Shown one piece after another: positions 12,011-16,951 of a stretch of 64,000 nt of DNA. The notes below the pieces were generated by a model. It saw only the letters and a program-made list of their open reading frames with translations, ran no database searches and was not told the origin of the DNA. Positions within the stretch are counted from its first letter, which is position 1. Each line of letters begins with the position of its first letter. The translations under genes were made by a program, and so were the position numbers. The stretch spans positions 310,001 to 374,000 of the forward strand of contig JARLIO010000034.1 of NCBI GenBank assembly GCA_031291675.1, in the 5' to 3' direction. This DNA comes from Azospirillaceae bacterium. Its GTDB lineage: Bacteria > Pseudomonadota > Alphaproteobacteria > Azospirillales > Azospirillaceae.

Positions 12011-13429
12011 TCACACCACCCGGAAATTCTTGAATTGCCACGGGTCTTCGGAATCGATGTCTTCAGGGAACAACCGTCCGCGATCCTGCAACGGGGTCCA
12101 ATCGCCATAGATTCCGACCACCTCGCCCAGATAGGGCGCGCAGATTTCCAGAATCCGTTCGAAATCCATTTCTTCAGGCTCGATCACGCCGCGCTCGGGA
12201 TTTTCGGTCGCCCAAACCATGGCCGCGAGGATCGAAGCCGTAACCTGAAGGCTGGTCGCATTGTTGTAGGGCGCCAGCGCGCGCGCCTGCCCGATCGACA
12301 GGCGGGAACCGTACCAGTAAATATTACGGGAATGCCCCATCAGCAGGACGCCGAGTTCATCGGTCCCTGCCGCAACCTCGTCGACCAGCAGACGTTTCTC
12401 CGGCTGAAGCCGCCAGTTCTTGCCCGCGAACTCATGCAGTGACAGCACGGCATCGTCACAGGGGTGATAGGCATAATGGCAGGTCGGGCGATAAATCAGA
12501 CGATCGCCTTCGGTGATCGAATAGTAATCGGCGATTGAAATCGCCTCCCCATGGGTGATCAGGAAACCGCGATAGGGGCCTTCCAGCGGTGTCCAGCTCC
12601 GGACCTGGGTTGCGGCGCCGGGACGGCTCAACCAAAGACCGACCTTGTCGCCGGTCAGGTACGGGTGGCCGTCGGCCGGCCACTCCTTTTCGTGGCTGCC
12701 CCAGCCCAGTTCGGCAGGCTGACAGCCTTCGCCGACAAAGCCGTCGATCGACCAGGTGTTCACGAACTGCCCGACCTGCTTGGGCGTCGTCGCAACCTGC
12801 GTGTCGCGCTCGGCGATGTGGATGACCTTGACCCCCAGCCTGTAGCTCAGGGCCGCCCATTGCGCCCGCGTCGCCGGCGCCGCGGCGTCGACGCCGGTAT
12901 CACGGGCAAGTTGCAGCAAGGCGCGCTTGACGAAATGCGATACCAACCCCGGATTCGCGCCATGGGTAATGACGGCCGTCGGCCCCGCGCCCAGGGACCG
13001 CCGCACCGCCAACGCGCTTTCCCGCAAGGCGTAATTGGTGCGCGCCGCCGGCGACAAGGTCGCGTCGGTATAACCGCCGGCCCAGGGTTCGATGCAGGTG
13101 TCCAGATAGAGCGCACCGACGCGATGGCAGAACGCGATCAGCGCAACGCTGGAAACATCGACCGAAACGTTGAGGAGAAAATCACCCCGGCCGAGCAACG
13201 GCTCCAGCACCGACACGTAGTTTTCCCGCGTCAACGGTTCGCGAATGAAGGCGACGCCGTAATGATCAGCCTCAACATGACCGCGCTCCTCCGCCGTGAC
13301 GACGGTGATCTGCTGCGGCGTAATCGCGAAATGACGCAACAACAGTGGCAGCACACCTTGGCCGATGCTGCCGAAACCGACGATGACCAGACGGCCGGAA
13401 AAAGCGAACTGAGTGATATTGAGCGGCAT
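12011..13429 (-). CDS. hss: Homospermidine synthase
   Basis: The protein has 472 residues, the family length. It joins two putrescines (or putrescine and spermidine) in an NAD-dependent reaction to give sym-homospermidine. Visible features are the N-terminal Rossmann motif VIVGFGSIGQGVLPLLLRHF, the acidic NVSVDVSSVALI region, CIEPWAGGYTD, THGANPGLVSHFVK and the C-terminal YGSRLSIGQARALAPYNNAT, all typical of bacterial Hss. The ATG at 13429 follows GGGGGTTCC. It lies 424 bp downstream of odc on the same strand but has its own likely promoter, so the two genes form a polyamine unit without being strictly one operon. Confidence 0.95.
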   Translation of the reverse strand: MPLNITQFAFSGRLVIVGFGSIGQGVLPLLLRHFAITPQQITVVTAEERGHVEADHYGVAFIREPLTRENYVSVLEPLLGRGDFLLNVSVDVSSVALIAFCHRVGALYLDTCIEPWAGGYTDATLSPAARTNYALRESALAVRRSLGAGPTAVITHGANPGLVSHFVKRALLQLARDTGVDAAAPATRAQWAALSYRLGVKVIHIAERDTQVATTPKQVGQFVNTWSIDGFVGEGCQPAELGWGSHEKEWPADGHPYLTGDKVGLWLSRPGAATQVRSWTPLEGPYRGFLITHGEAISIADYYSITEGDRLIYRPTCHYAYHPCDDAVLSLHEFAGKNWRLQPEKRLLVDEVAAGTDELGVLLMGHSRNIYWYGSRLSIGQARALAPYNNATSLQVTASILAAMVWATENPERGVIEPEEMDFERILEICAPYLGEVVGIYGDWTPLQDRGRLFPEDIDSEDPWQFKNFRVV

Positions 13430-13853
13430 TGGAACCCCCGCGCGCACTTGACGTCGAATCAACAACGCCCTGACATGATGATCTGGTGACGATTACCGGA
13501 CAGAAATAGTACATATTTCTGGACATTTCAGGCAATCGGTATCGGCCGCAACCGCGACGACACGCCACATCGCCGAAGCCTGTGTCGTGTTTCGCGCGAA
13601 AACGTTGCGTTTTTGTTACTCTGCATGGACACGACAAACGCGCCGGTCACTTTGAGGACCGGCCGGTGGGCCATCAGCGTCTTCGTTTCGATCTCACAAT
13701 GACCTCACCCTCGCCCCTTCTCCGGGTTTCCCCGGCGGAGCTGGTGCGACGCACCGCGGCAAAGCGCAACGTCATGGTGATCAGCCGCGGCAACGCCGCC
13801 TTTGCCTCCGCCGCGGCCCGAGGACGGGGCGCGGCATCCCCCGCCGCACCCGC
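13430..13853 (-). other. odc-hss intergenic region
   Basis: Besides the hss promoter element listed separately (13501-13535), this 424-bp gap holds nothing I can call. A 99-codon + frame at 13582-13881 has no ribosome site and overlaps the odc 3' end, so it is treated as noise. Confidence 0.5.
13501..13535 (-). promoter_or_regulatory. Candidate hss promoter overlapped by a perfect palindrome
   Basis: On the minus strand TTGCCT (13530-13535) and TACTAT (13506-13511) are spaced by 18 bp, which would start transcription about 70 nt before hss. An 8-bp inverted repeat, CAGAAATA-GTACA-TATTTCTG (13501-13521), sits on the -10 box. This is the expected geometry for a repressor operator. The repressor is unknown. 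Confidence 0.5.
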
Positions 13854-15101
13854 TCAGGCGACCATCGCCCAATCGGCGTAGCCCGGCGTCGCCAGCATCG
13901 GCGCGTCGGCGACTTCCGCCACCTCCGCCCGATCAAACCCGTTGAAGGCGGTCCGCAACGCCGAACCATAGGCCCCCAATTGACCGATTTCGATCCAATC
14001 CCCTTCGCCGATGTCGTTCGGCAGCTCAAACGGGCCCGCCATCCGATCAGCGCTGTCGCAGGTCGGGCCAAACAACCCGAACCCCTTCAGCGCTGCGCCA
14101 TCGTCGGCCCCGTCGGGCCTGATCAGCCGGCAGGGGAAGCGGAAGCCCGGCGCCCCGGCATCGGACAACGCGCCGTAAACGCCGTCGTTGACAAACAGCA
14201 TGTCACCACGACGCAGCAGGACCTGCACCACCAGCGACGCCCCCGGCGCAACCAGGGCCCGCCCGGGCTCGCACCACAGACGGCAATGCGCCGGCAGCGC
14301 CAGGCGGGCCACGCCGCGTTCGATCGCCGCCATGAAGTCCGCCAGCGGCGGCGGTGTGACCCCCGGATAGCTGACCGGGAAACCACCGCCGACATCCAGC
14401 ATGTCGATGACGACATCGGCCTGTTGCAGCACCGCGCCGGCCCGTGCCAACGCCGCTTCGTAGGCCGCGGGATCCAGCATCTGCGAACCGACATGGAACG
14501 ACAAACCGATCCGCGGCGCCATCAGGCGCGCCGCCCGCAACAAGCCGACGGCTTCCGCCTCGGCAGCACCGAACTTGCCGGACAAATCATAGACCGCCGA
14601 GCCCTTCGGCAGCGCCAGCCGCACGATCAGACCCAGATCGGTGGCGTTATCGGTTTCCTGGAACAGCTTCACCAGCTCTTCCGCGCTATCCAGCACGAAA
14701 TCCCGGACGCCATACTGGAAATACGCCTCCCGAATCGCGGTCCGCGACTTGACCGGATGCATGTAATGGATCACCGCATCCGAGAACAGCTGACGGATCA
14801 AGCGGATTTCACCGGGCGAAGCCGCGTCGAAATGCCGGATGCCGCCCTCATAAAGCGCCCGCAACACCGCCGGTTCCGGGTTGCACTTGACGGCGTAAAG
14901 AACATCGCCGGGAAAGGCACGAACGAAATGCCGCGCCTGCTCGGCGAAGACCGCCGGACGCAGGCAATGAACCGGATCAACCGGGCGCCGCTCGGCAACC
15001 AGCCGGTCGACAGTGACACTTTGTGCGGCCGGCGCGGCCGCGTCCAGGACAGCAGCACGGCGCAGCGGCGAAACCGCAGAACGAAAACGGATGTGGCCCA
15101 T
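13854..15101 (-). CDS. odc: Ornithine decarboxylase, eukaryotic-type fold III (PLP)
   Basis: The protein has 415 residues and converts ornithine to putrescine. The alanine-racemase-fold barrel carries PLP lysine Lys72 in YAVKCNP, HVGSQM, the glycine loop DVGGGFP and EPGRALVA. The C-terminal half has the decarboxylase cysteine in GPTCDSAD and the interface motif GAYGSALRTAFNGF. GPTCDSAD separates ornithine/lysine decarboxylases from DapDC (LysA is elsewhere, at 42891). The ATG at 15101 has a GGAGGGG ribosome site six bases upstream. A long leader with an upstream ORF precedes it. The product would feed the homospermidine synthase downstream; activity on lysine as well is possible. Confidence 0.92.
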   Translation of the reverse strand: MGHIRFRSAVSPLRRAAVLDAAAPAAQSVTVDRLVAERRPVDPVHCLRPAVFAEQARHFVRAFPGDVLYAVKCNPEPAVLRALYEGGIRHFDAASPGEIRLIRQLFSDAVIHYMHPVKSRTAIREAYFQYGVRDFVLDSAEELVKLFQETDNATDLGLIVRLALPKGSAVYDLSGKFGAAEAEAVGLLRAARLMAPRIGLSFHVGSQMLDPAAYEAALARAGAVLQQADVVIDMLDVGGGFPVSYPGVTPPPLADFMAAIERGVARLALPAHCRLWCEPGRALVAPGASLVVQVLLRRGDMLFVNDGVYGALSDAGAPGFRFPCRLIRPDGADDGAALKGFGLFGPTCDSADRMAGPFELPNDIGEGDWIEIGQLGAYGSALRTAFNGFDRAEVAEVADAPMLATPGYADWAMVA

Positions 15102-15437
15102 GGCGCACCCCTCCGAAGGCCGCTGCGAAACAGCGGCGATACAGTGGCGAGTCGAGGCCCACGGCGTCAGCCGCAGACCAGGCGAATATCAGAGGATGGG
15201 ATTGGGATAGCCGAACGTCCCGGAGACTTCGTGCCCCACCAAAGCGGGGTCGCACGATTTAAAGTCACGGACGCCGGCAGTAAACCTACCGAGCGGGCGC
15301 CCGTTGGTGGCTTGCAAACATATCGACCTCCCTCTCGGGACCGGCCCACTGATGACCGGTTCTGCCAAAAAGGACGCGGTACGTCGTTGCATAACCCCAA
15401 GGGGCCATAGGCACGTGCGGGTGCGTCGTTAGCGCTT
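15102..15437 (-). promoter_or_regulatory. Long structured 5' leader of odc (speF-like leader candidate)
   Basis: About 330 nt separate the candidate promoter from the odc start. In transcript order there is a 5-bp stem (15340-15360) ending before a strong ribosome site, an 11-codon ORF (15286-15321), a GUGC/GCAC-CCCC/GGGG hairpin (15231-15255), and a 7-bp GCCGCUG/CAGCGGC hairpin (15119-15137) that ends just before the odc ribosome site (15108-15114). A speF RNA motif is known upstream of alphaproteobacterial ornithine decarboxylase genes. Membership of this leader is inference until tested with the covariance model. Confidence 0.6.
15286..15321 (-). CDS. 11-residue odc leader peptide (upstream ORF)
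   Basis: The ORF encodes MFASHQRAPAR followed by TAG. It has an excellent GGGAGG ribosome site five bases before its ATG, better than many real genes in the window. It ends 184 nt before odc. In enterobacteria a speF leader peptide stalls ribosomes in response to ornithine; an analogous role here is inference. The peptide sequence is not obviously related to the enterobacterial one. Confidence 0.55.
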   Translation of the reverse strand: MFASHQRAPAR

Positions 15438-15465
15438 CAAATACGCTTTTTGGGCCAGAATGCAA
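15438..15465 (-). promoter_or_regulatory. Candidate odc promoter
   Basis: Minus-strand TTGCAT (15460-15465) and TATTTG (15438-15443) are 16 bp apart, in a locally AT-rich patch. The match to the sigma-70 consensus is moderate. Confidence 0.4.
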
Positions 15466-15519: not shown

Positions 15520-15876
15520 TCAGTCGCTCGCCTCCGGCTGACAGTCGACGGTATCCCCCGGAAGAGAACGACAGGCCATGCCATTATTGAACCGGAAGAC
15601 GCCGCGATTATCCCGGCGCACGGACATGCCGTTCGAGAACTGAATCCAGCCCATCGATCCCCAATAACTGTTGATTCCGTTTGAAAATTTCAGCCCGCCA
15701 TCCGGCATTTTTTCTATGGCGACGCCGTCCTGGAAGACAATATTCTTGTCGCCGTCGACCGTCGCCGAATAGCCGTTGCTGCAACTGGCACCGTCGGCAC
15801 CGTGCGGCGCACAGGTGAAAGGCAGGCTCGCCTTGGTCAGGACCAACGCATACACCGCGACTTCAATCACATTCAT
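15520..15876 (-). CDS. Small hypothetical protein with repeated F-x-NG units
   Basis: The protein has 118 residues and no family I recognise. Its second half repeats a short pattern around Asn-Gly: KFSNGINSY, QFSNGMSV, RFNNGMACR, each following a turn. This suggests a small beta-rich repeat fold like MORN or WG-type repeats. There are four cysteines (two in CAPHGADGASC). An alternating N-terminal hydrophobic stretch is too weak for a sure signal peptide. The ATG at 15876 has GGGAGGCGAC just upstream. It precedes the odc promoter on the same strand. Confidence 0.65.
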   Translation of the reverse strand: MNVIEVAVYALVLTKASLPFTCAPHGADGASCSNGYSATVDGDKNIVFQDGVAIEKMPDGGLKFSNGINSYWGSMGWIQFSNGMSVRRDNRGVFRFNNGMACRSLPGDTVDCQPEASD

Positions 15877-15937
15877 TGTCGCCTCCCGATTTATGGACCC
15901 AGTCTCCCGGGACCCATCCGGAAAGCTGGTTTTGACA

Positions 15938-16951
15938 TCACAATATGTCACGCGGAACCGTCAGCAAAGCACGACGAATCCCGGCCAGACTGGGGCGGTT
16001 GTCCGCGTTAAAGGCCAAAGGCCGGCATTGGTGCATGGCTGCAATTCCGATCCGCGCGGTCAGCAAACCATTCAACAAAGCCTGGCCGACTTTGGTCGAT
16101 ACCGCGGCCGCCAGAGTTCCCCCCAGTGCTTCGATCGCCATATGGTGACCGGTCTCGGCCAAACCGGCAACGGCAAGATTACCCATCATGTGACGAAACA
16201 GTCGTACCGACCCGATATAGCCAGGCCGGACGCCATAGAGCGCCGCAATCTGGCGGATCACGCGGACAGTGCGCCACAGCATCACCGCGACGTCGATCAC
16301 GGCGGCCGGACTGAGCATGCTGGCGATGGCCGCGTCACGGGCCGCCCGCAGCACCAGCGCCTCAGCCCGACGGTCGAGGTCGGCCAGAACCACGCGATCG
16401 ATCAGCATCACCAGTTCGCGATCATCATGGGCATCGCCGACACTGCCACGCCACCGCTCCAGCGCCGTCGCGACATCGCCGCGATCCCGGTACAATCCGG
16501 TGATCGCCGCGGCATAATCGCGGCCGACACGGCCACCCGCGCTGTTCATCGCCAGCGCCCCGACGTCGCGCAGCCGATCCATCGTCCGCAGGCGCGCCAG
16601 GCTGCGGACCTCATCGGCCAGCAGCACGACAAGACCGATCGCGGCGCCGGCCGTGACGACAGCCGCCGCTGTGCCCAGGGCGATGCTGGTGGCAAACGCC
16701 CGGGCCAGAAGATCGGCAACGTCGAAGCCCAACGCCGTGAGGACCAGAAGCACGCCGCCGCCGACGACCCCGCGAACCGCCCAGCGCCGGCCCGGAGACG
16801 GCGGCGGCGGCGTGGCGACATCCGCCGCCGCGGCGTCATCCCCGTCGAAGACCAAGGGCTGAGCGGCATCGACGTCGAATTCAACCGGGCCGATCGGATC
16901 GTCGCGATCAACCGTCCCCCCCGCTGACGCTCCGCTCTGTCGTCCACTCAT
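15938..16951 (-). CDS. ycjF: YcjF/TIGR01620-family membrane protein (DUF697)
   Basis: The protein has 337 residues. An acidic N-terminal segment precedes two membrane helices (about residues 58-82 and 88-112). The DUF697-like part carries the family pattern around ASMLSPAAVIDVAVMLWRT and IAALYGVRPGYIGSVRLFR. The start codon overlaps the ycjX stop by four bases, so the two are translationally coupled. In enterobacteria YcjX-YcjF sit beside the phage-shock genes and form an envelope-stress-linked pair; no psp genes are visible here. Confidence 0.85.
   Translation of the reverse strand: MSGRQSGASAGGTVDRDDPIGPVEFDVDAAQPLVFDGDDAAAADVATPPPPSPGRRWAVRGVVGGGVLLVLTALGFDVADLLARAFATSIALGTAAAVVTAGAAIGLVVLLADEVRSLARLRTMDRLRDVGALAMNSAGGRVGRDYAAAITGLYRDRGDVATALERWRGSVGDAHDDRELVMLIDRVVLADLDRRAEALVLRAARDAAIASMLSPAAVIDVAVMLWRTVRVIRQIAALYGVRPGYIGSVRLFRHMMGNLAVAGLAETGHHMAIEALGGTLAAAVSTKVGQALLNGLLTARIGIAAMHQCRPLAFNADNRPSLAGIRRALLTVPRDIL

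Follow-up and report, generated by a model that had tools for sequence, protein, structure and literature searches.

A conserved leader with an upstream reading frame before an ornithine decarboxylase-like gene of Azospirillaceae: a putative RNA switch of the alphar45/speF kind

Sequence comparison confirms that odc, a gene for an ornithine/lysine-decarboxylase-like protein in an Azospirillaceae bacterium, is preceded by a real, strongly conserved, regulatory leader with a genuine upstream open reading frame (uORF). We put at about 0.58 the probability that this 5' leader (approximately 15430-15102, minus strand) acts in cis as an RNA switch of the alphar45/speF kind and works by the steps proposed below, in which a conserved core would either close its basal stem, P1, or give way to a helix that hides the ribosome site of the uORF. 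The most conserved part of the leader, at about 15317-15430, lies upstream of the uORF and was missed in the original prediction. Coordinates are those of the window, the whole stretch of 64,000 nucleotides analysed, and the features are as follows.

12011..13465, minus strand: hss, homospermidine synthase, the next gene 3' of odc (E 1e-165 to a solved homospermidine synthase)
13854..15101, minus strand: odc, ornithine/lysine-decarboxylase-like, 415 aa (Pfam and solved-structure relatives)
15114-15108, minus strand: Shine-Dalgarno (SD) sequence of odc, GGAGGGG (sequence)
15119..15137, minus strand: hairpin just upstream of the odc ribosome site (z -3.16 versus shuffles)
15229..15257, minus strand: hairpin in the spacer between uORF and odc (z -3.07 versus shuffles)
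15286..15321, minus strand: uORF MFASHQRAPAR, 11 codons, ATG 15321-15319, stop TAG 15288-15286 (read directly; uniform place in orthologues)
15327..15336, minus strand: SD of the uORF, GAGAGGGAGG (sequence; alignment A1)
15329..15374, minus strand: SD-sequestering hairpin (covariation and folding)
15367..15371, minus strand: U-tract directly 3' of P1, CUUUUUGG (sequence; alignment A1)
15373..15430, minus strand: alphar45-like core (model R1)
15427-15423 with 15377-15373, minus strand: basal stem P1, GACGC with GCGUC (complementarity; counts in alignments A1 and A3)
15438..15465, minus strand: promoter-like element, TTGCAT (15465-15460), 16 nt, TATTTG (15443-15438) (sequence; permissive search in relatives)

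The odc locus and the distribution of its leader

The odc product matches the Pfam family Orn_Arg_deC_N (1.7e-37), and its best solved relatives are lysine/ornithine decarboxylases. The 388 nt that separate odc from hss (13466-13853) yielded no further leader in a search with R1, a model built from leaders of type A only (see below); hss may therefore share the odc transcript or be served by a promoter of its own. An ORF of 143 codons (15520-15951), with repeated FxNGM/I-like stretches, lies between odc and a DUF697/YcjX pair; it matched no Pfam or NCBIfam family.

The promoter-like element claimed earlier is present, and its position appears to be kept: a permissive search found a TTG...xA pair, at a spacing of 16-18 and ending 6-11 nt before the core, in all 30 orthologous leaders, which are those of the 30 best odc matches, one per genome and the bacterium's own included. 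By consensus, however, the element is weak, with only 6 of the 12 sigma70 letters, and it is absent from the consensus scanner's list for the region. The odc transcript would be expected to start at about 15430.

Matches to the leader DNA were found in 32 of 59 genomes, including the bacterium's own; all 32 are of its family, from which 35 members were searched. The exact core pattern occurs in 98 stretches of a collection of species genomes, 90 of them with an ODC gene next and the remaining eight ending too early to show the next gene; the leader was not found in plasmid records. Leaders of type A-short, with uORFs of 11-17 codons, precede odc genes of the window's type in Azospirillaceae, and a 12-codon form elsewhere precedes a canonical odc (L194). 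Type A-long (28-59 codons) is found chiefly upstream of canonical odc genes in other alphaproteobacteria, with a few members (L022, L023 and L127) upstream of the window-type gene instead, and type B (28-56 codons, mostly beginning MxxVVVGG) stands before canonical odc, mainly in Azospirillaceae. The bacterium's own genome carries a second copy of the leader, of type B, before a canonical odc (G000:C17:72095-72213).

Across the class, R1 matches 43 of 289 alphaproteobacterial genomes, with 59 matches at E <= 0.01, 50 of which were examined for the first gene that follows. At 43 of these it is odc, at three homospermidine synthase and at one a glutamine amidotransferase; it is unclear at one (L218), and the contig ends at two (L208, L222). 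Because this type of leader directly precedes homospermidine synthase in L200, L213 and L223 (genomes G190, G305 and G161), the element would seem to govern more genes than odc. L217 and L220, in addition, have a homospermidine synthase gene after odc. We note that in L198 the gene in frame after the leader match encodes a class-I glutamine amidotransferase that might be a polyamine-related hydrolase.

Pairing of the core and the uORF ribosome site

Alignment A1 comprises 31 dissimilar A leaders, in which CGCACGUGC and ACGACG are invariant and the SD and AUG of the uORF are approximately as conserved as the core. The structure was named from complementarity before it was counted. Besides P1 it includes the SD-sequestering hairpin, in which UCCUUUUUGG (15374-15365) pairs with CCGAGAGGGA (15338-15329), with an inner stem of ACCGG (15360-15356) and CCGGU (15344-15340), and whose foot overlaps the 3' strand of P1. 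The named structure is paired in 95.7% of cells in A1, compared with 30-53% when it is slid along the alignment. P1 is paired in 99.4% of cells with zero double changes, and the SD helix in 98.4% with double changes in three of eight counted pairs; the doubly changed pairs number four, no more than slid versions reach (0-5). In one genus (L025), UUUUUAAG with CUUGAG replaces UUUUUGG with CCGAG in the SD helix. RNAalifold applied to A1 chose other, shorter helices and not the named structure.

A second alignment, A3, holds 53 leaders, mostly from many families, that were aligned to the model and are hence biased toward its structure; there, 94.6% of cells are paired, compared with 30-53% when slid. 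Double changes occur in 17 of 30 pairs, against 4-8 in slid versions and a mean of 5.7 in shuffles that retain the relatedness of the sequences, and they affect four of the five P1 pairs and six of the eight pairs in the SD helix.

Folding probabilities were calculated for 29 of the 31 A cores and for all 19 B cores. P1 forms with a mean probability of 0.88 when the transcript stops at the U-tract and of 0.01 after synthesis of the ribosome site, a fall seen in 29 of 29 A leaders. In the same 29 of 29, the uORF SD is less often unpaired (mean 0.022; 0.01 in the window) than when the upstream sequence is shuffled (0.401). P1 and the hidden uORF start are thus predicted to be largely mutually exclusive. 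In the window, the SD-sequestering hairpin has a z-score of -2.89, with none of 200 shuffles as stable; neither the alphar45-like half alone (z -0.38) nor the whole 112-nt element (z -0.98) is more stable than its shuffles. A terminator-like site falls on a local stem at 15385-15373, one of two such sites in the region compared with 0.7 (sd 1.1) in shuffles.

For B-type leaders, which have no U-tract, RNAalifold without guidance pairs the segment after P1 (GCGUA..CC) with the segment holding the SD and AUG. When B-type sequences are folded singly, concealment of the SD is weak (0.137 versus 0.238, with the lower value in 15 of 19) and the AUG mostly stays open.

Kinship with alphar45 and speF leaders

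The scan called for in the original prediction, with the Rfam speF model RF00518, gave no match at the gathering score (37 bits) in the window, the bacterium's own genome, the loci of 20 relatives or 20 B-type loci; the genomes used as controls for the own-genome scan gave none either. The Rfam alphar45 model RF02347 likewise remained below its gathering score (40 bits) in the window and the relatives' loci, with nothing in the window up to E 10. R1 matches the window at 15430-15319 (123.5 bits, E 2.3e-25) and finds all 20 B-type loci (E up to 3.5e-4). In the class, the Rfam speF model matches four of 142 genomes, three of them over the cut-off, and at all four loci alphar45 is directly followed by speF, with the same order of boxes. 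R1 matches two of these, overlapping the Rfam alphar45/speF matches (L063, E 4.3e-5; L061, E 0.0085), and is not significant at the other two (L062, E 0.14; L064, E 0.18). These matches, at two of the four loci, support the suggested connection to the speF leaders that lie upstream of ornithine decarboxylases, and we read the window leader, alphar45 and speF as one superfamily, of which the window leader would be a divergent variant.

Like the window leader, speF (RF00518) lies upstream of alphaproteobacterial ODC genes and contains GCACGUGC, GCAACGACG, CUUUUU-GG and the purine tract GAAGAGG in the same order, and by eye its U-tract can also pair with the purine tract. It is said to start near the transcript start (PMC1273637, in its accessible part). 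The two differ in that the Rfam model misses the window and that the 3' domain of RF00518 was not recognised in the window leader. No AUG-initiated uORF is common to the nine speF loci read (of ten requested, and seven of the nine from one genus); six loci of that one genus share a 12-codon frame beginning with UUG. The topology of the alphar45 (RF02347) 5' domain is that of the window, with a basal stem, a GCACGUGCC / GCAACGACG helix and a U-tract at the 3' end. Its P1, however, is GCCC/GGGC rather than GACGC/GCGUC, and the window core is the first half of one leader, whereas alphar45 is reported to be expressed separately from the speF leader, as an RNA in its own right (PMC7717549, accessible part). 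As far as the accessible text of each source goes, the 2005 description of the speF leader gave no ligand; six compounds were negative for binding to the tumefaciens speF RNA, homospermidine not being on the list (PMC1273637), and a paper of 2020 still calls its function unclear (PMC7717549).

Two other ODC leaders invite comparison, and we know of no alphar45-like domain in one of them, the orf34 leader of Salmonella speF. The odc1 motif (uORF-25-1), studied experimentally with the copy from Sphingomonas echinoides, shares with the window leader its place before an ODC gene, a uORF of 11 residues and a hairpin that contains a ribosome site; it differs in that its UUG starts are two nt apart, its uORF overlaps odc and its peptide is highly conserved, whereas the window has an AUG start, a distance of 184 nt and a peptide that is not conserved (PMC8632094). 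Salmonella orf34 is likewise a uORF in a long structured ornithine decarboxylase leader, but according to the accessible part of PMC6386406 it has 34 codons and the conserved domain DUF2618, whereas six long uORFs of the window type have no Pfam match. In the accessible parts of the literature consulted, which included PMC12403871 and PMC2573895 and had most subscription journals outside its scope, no uORF is described in a leader of this type; the main text of PMC10117765, in the part available, has no words beginning with odc or ornithine.

The uORF, rival readings and the route to odc

The uORF and its strong ribosome site are where the original prediction had placed them, with correct coordinates on the minus strand. 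All 30 odc-orthologue loci have the core and a GAGAGGGA-like SD that precedes an ATG by 6-9 nt; their uORF has 11 codons in 21, 12 in five, 17 in two, 28 in one and 31 in one. That it is a chance ORF in an ordinary long leader would fit its shortness, the lack of an Rfam match and the lack of peptide selection in the short class; since the comparison shows a uORF in 30 of 30 orthologous loci with conserved SD and AUG, this reading is contradicted, and with the purifying selection on long forms and the in-frame fusions to odc described next, we give it almost no credence.

Among the 50 class loci examined, an ATG stands exactly at the end of model R1 in 42; the other eight are without one at the model end, three of them having an ATG directly after it. 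L214 and L216 have no uORF, and the conserved ribosome site there belongs to odc itself; in L227 the odc ATG begins 6 nt after the start of the model's end codon. In four others (L199, L201, L203 and L211) the frame from the conserved AUG runs without a stop into odc, and neither an alternative ATG nor, by eye, a start of another kind with a ribosome site was seen; the resulting N-terminal extensions begin ML or MI, like many uORFs. These four in-frame fusions count as weaker evidence than L214, L216 and L227, because open extensions can arise by chance in GC-rich DNA. As the conserved SD serves odc itself in seven of the 43 odc loci, initiation at the conserved site is probably the controlled step.

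Enterobacterial SpeFL arrests ribosomes on ornithine, and the original prediction proposed the same logic with an unrelated peptide. On such a reading, the peptide made from the uORF would stall translation once ornithine or a polyamine was bound to it within the ribosome tunnel. The uORF is indeed kept at all 30 orthologous loci, but short-class peptides change freely (MFASHQRAPAR, MLALHGRALRR, MLDIGQKALVP, MNAVSRREGMVR), with a pN/pS of 1.09 in frame (82 pairs) and of 0.79 and 0.98 in the shifted frames. Since the in-frame value is at the level of no selection, the 11-codon ORF would be conserved as a start, a place and a rough length, and not as a peptide. These values come from uORFs of equal length with identical ones collapsed and pairs more than 40% different skipped, the set leaving out four A and one B uORF without a stop in the stretch and 18 further loci. 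Long A uORFs, mostly before canonical odc, give 0.37 in frame against 1.61 and 1.19 in shifted frames, and many end DPSSL-x-stop; by this measure they are clearly coding. B-type uORFs give 0.95 overall in frame, and 1.08 and 1.02 in shifted frames. Six long uORF peptides of relatives matched no Pfam or NCBIfam family, and the 11-mer is too short to scan.

The comparison of peptides among relatives thus turned up no conservation in the short class, and for that class arrest by this peptide on ornithine was rejected; the relationship that emerged is to the RNA leader alphar45/speF of alphaproteobacteria and not to enterobacterial speFL. The original prediction would have been abandoned in the absence of both an Rfam match and peptide conservation, and literally both are absent, but the leader is real nonetheless, its RNA and the start and end of its ORF being conserved. 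Eleven residues would hardly fill the ribosome exit tunnel, and at L214 and L216 the site serves odc without any uORF. A peptide sensor is therefore without support for the 11-codon form, where we consider it distinctly unlikely, and may hold for the long forms. Ten of 18 non-redundant short uORFs, the window's own among them, have CGG as their final sense codon, which favours both a peptide sensor and an attenuator in which charged tRNA-Arg is sensed at CGG before the uORF stop, a reading with a precedent in the Arg codons of Salmonella orf34 (PMC6386406, accessible part). The Arg frequency in short uORFs (0.152), however, is not above both shifted frames (0.095 and 0.192), a candidate enrichment that was accordingly rejected, and eight of the 18 have no Arg before the stop; we regard an arginine attenuator as very improbable.

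A plain ligand riboswitch, in which the core binds a metabolite, transcription terminates at the U-tract and the uORF has no role of its own, would explain the invariant letters of the core, the position of P1 against the U-tract and the separate expression reported for alphar45 (PMC7717549, accessible part). It sits poorly with the conservation of the uORF SD and AUG, which approaches that of the core, with the covariation of the SD helix, and with a U-tract that has only five U and is missing in B-type leaders, and we think it unlikely.

Under the switch that we favour, transcription would begin adjoining the core, which is predicted to fold first, with P1 closed just in front of the U-tract. 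RNA polymerase may then stop at the U-tract, yielding a short alphar45-like RNA, or continue, in which case the later uORF ribosome site is predicted to pair with the U-tract and take over the 3' strand of P1; covariation supports this hiding helix. The choice between P1 and the hidden start would be biased by a signal that binds to the invariant core. The enzymes of odc and hss lead to homospermidine, and since the leader also precedes hss we propose homospermidine as a candidate ligand; to judge by the genes, the signal would most likely be an end product of the odc-hss pathway, for example homospermidine or putrescine. Initiation at the uORF AUG would probably be the controlled step, the 11-codon uORF acting by the presence of a ribosome and the position of its stop rather than by its peptide, and refolding of the RNA, or protection from Rho, could pass the effect on to odc, which lies 184 nt further downstream.

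A bolder form of this model, possible but doubtful, is that alphar45 and speF are two halves of one bistable polyamine switch, whose core would sense homospermidine and choose between release of a terminated alphar45 and presentation of the ribosome site for the uORF or odc start. If true, it would constitute a new class of polyamine riboswitch, with an output start codon repeatedly re-used in evolution. The leader variant described here offers a candidate expression platform (P1 versus the uORF ribosome site), a candidate output (initiation at one site, given to odc in some lineages) and, in its position before homospermidine synthase, a pathway clue to homospermidine as candidate ligand.

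The two hairpins claimed earlier between uORF and odc are both present and more stable than shuffles. As to the relay, the excess of C over G that might mark a Rho site reaches only 9 in the window, a maximum matched by 40% of the background; across 30 leaders the median is 15.5, an excess in most, which 3.8% of a background drawn from the window only attains. The odc SD is mostly paired (mean unpaired 0.15), and in five loci of one genus (L025, L026, L027, L029 and L030) it pairs just after the uORF stop; no common sequestering partner was found across the leaders.

Leaders were also compared with shuffles for a hairpin starting 16 to 22 nt after the uORF ATG. Non-redundant B leaders, 28 of 28 of which carry such a hairpin, had a mean score of 18.45 (shuffled 13.15, sd 0.55); the 18 long-A leaders scored 15.86 (shuffled 13.48, sd 0.70), and the 19 short-A leaders, at 13.63 (shuffled 13.12, sd 0.60), showed no excess. 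Because the B-type MxxVVVGG start overlaps this hairpin, it may reflect a constraint on the RNA rather than selection on the peptide. We note that in B-type and most A-long leaders the hairpin extends from +16 to about +40 with varying letters, where an initiating ribosome would touch it.
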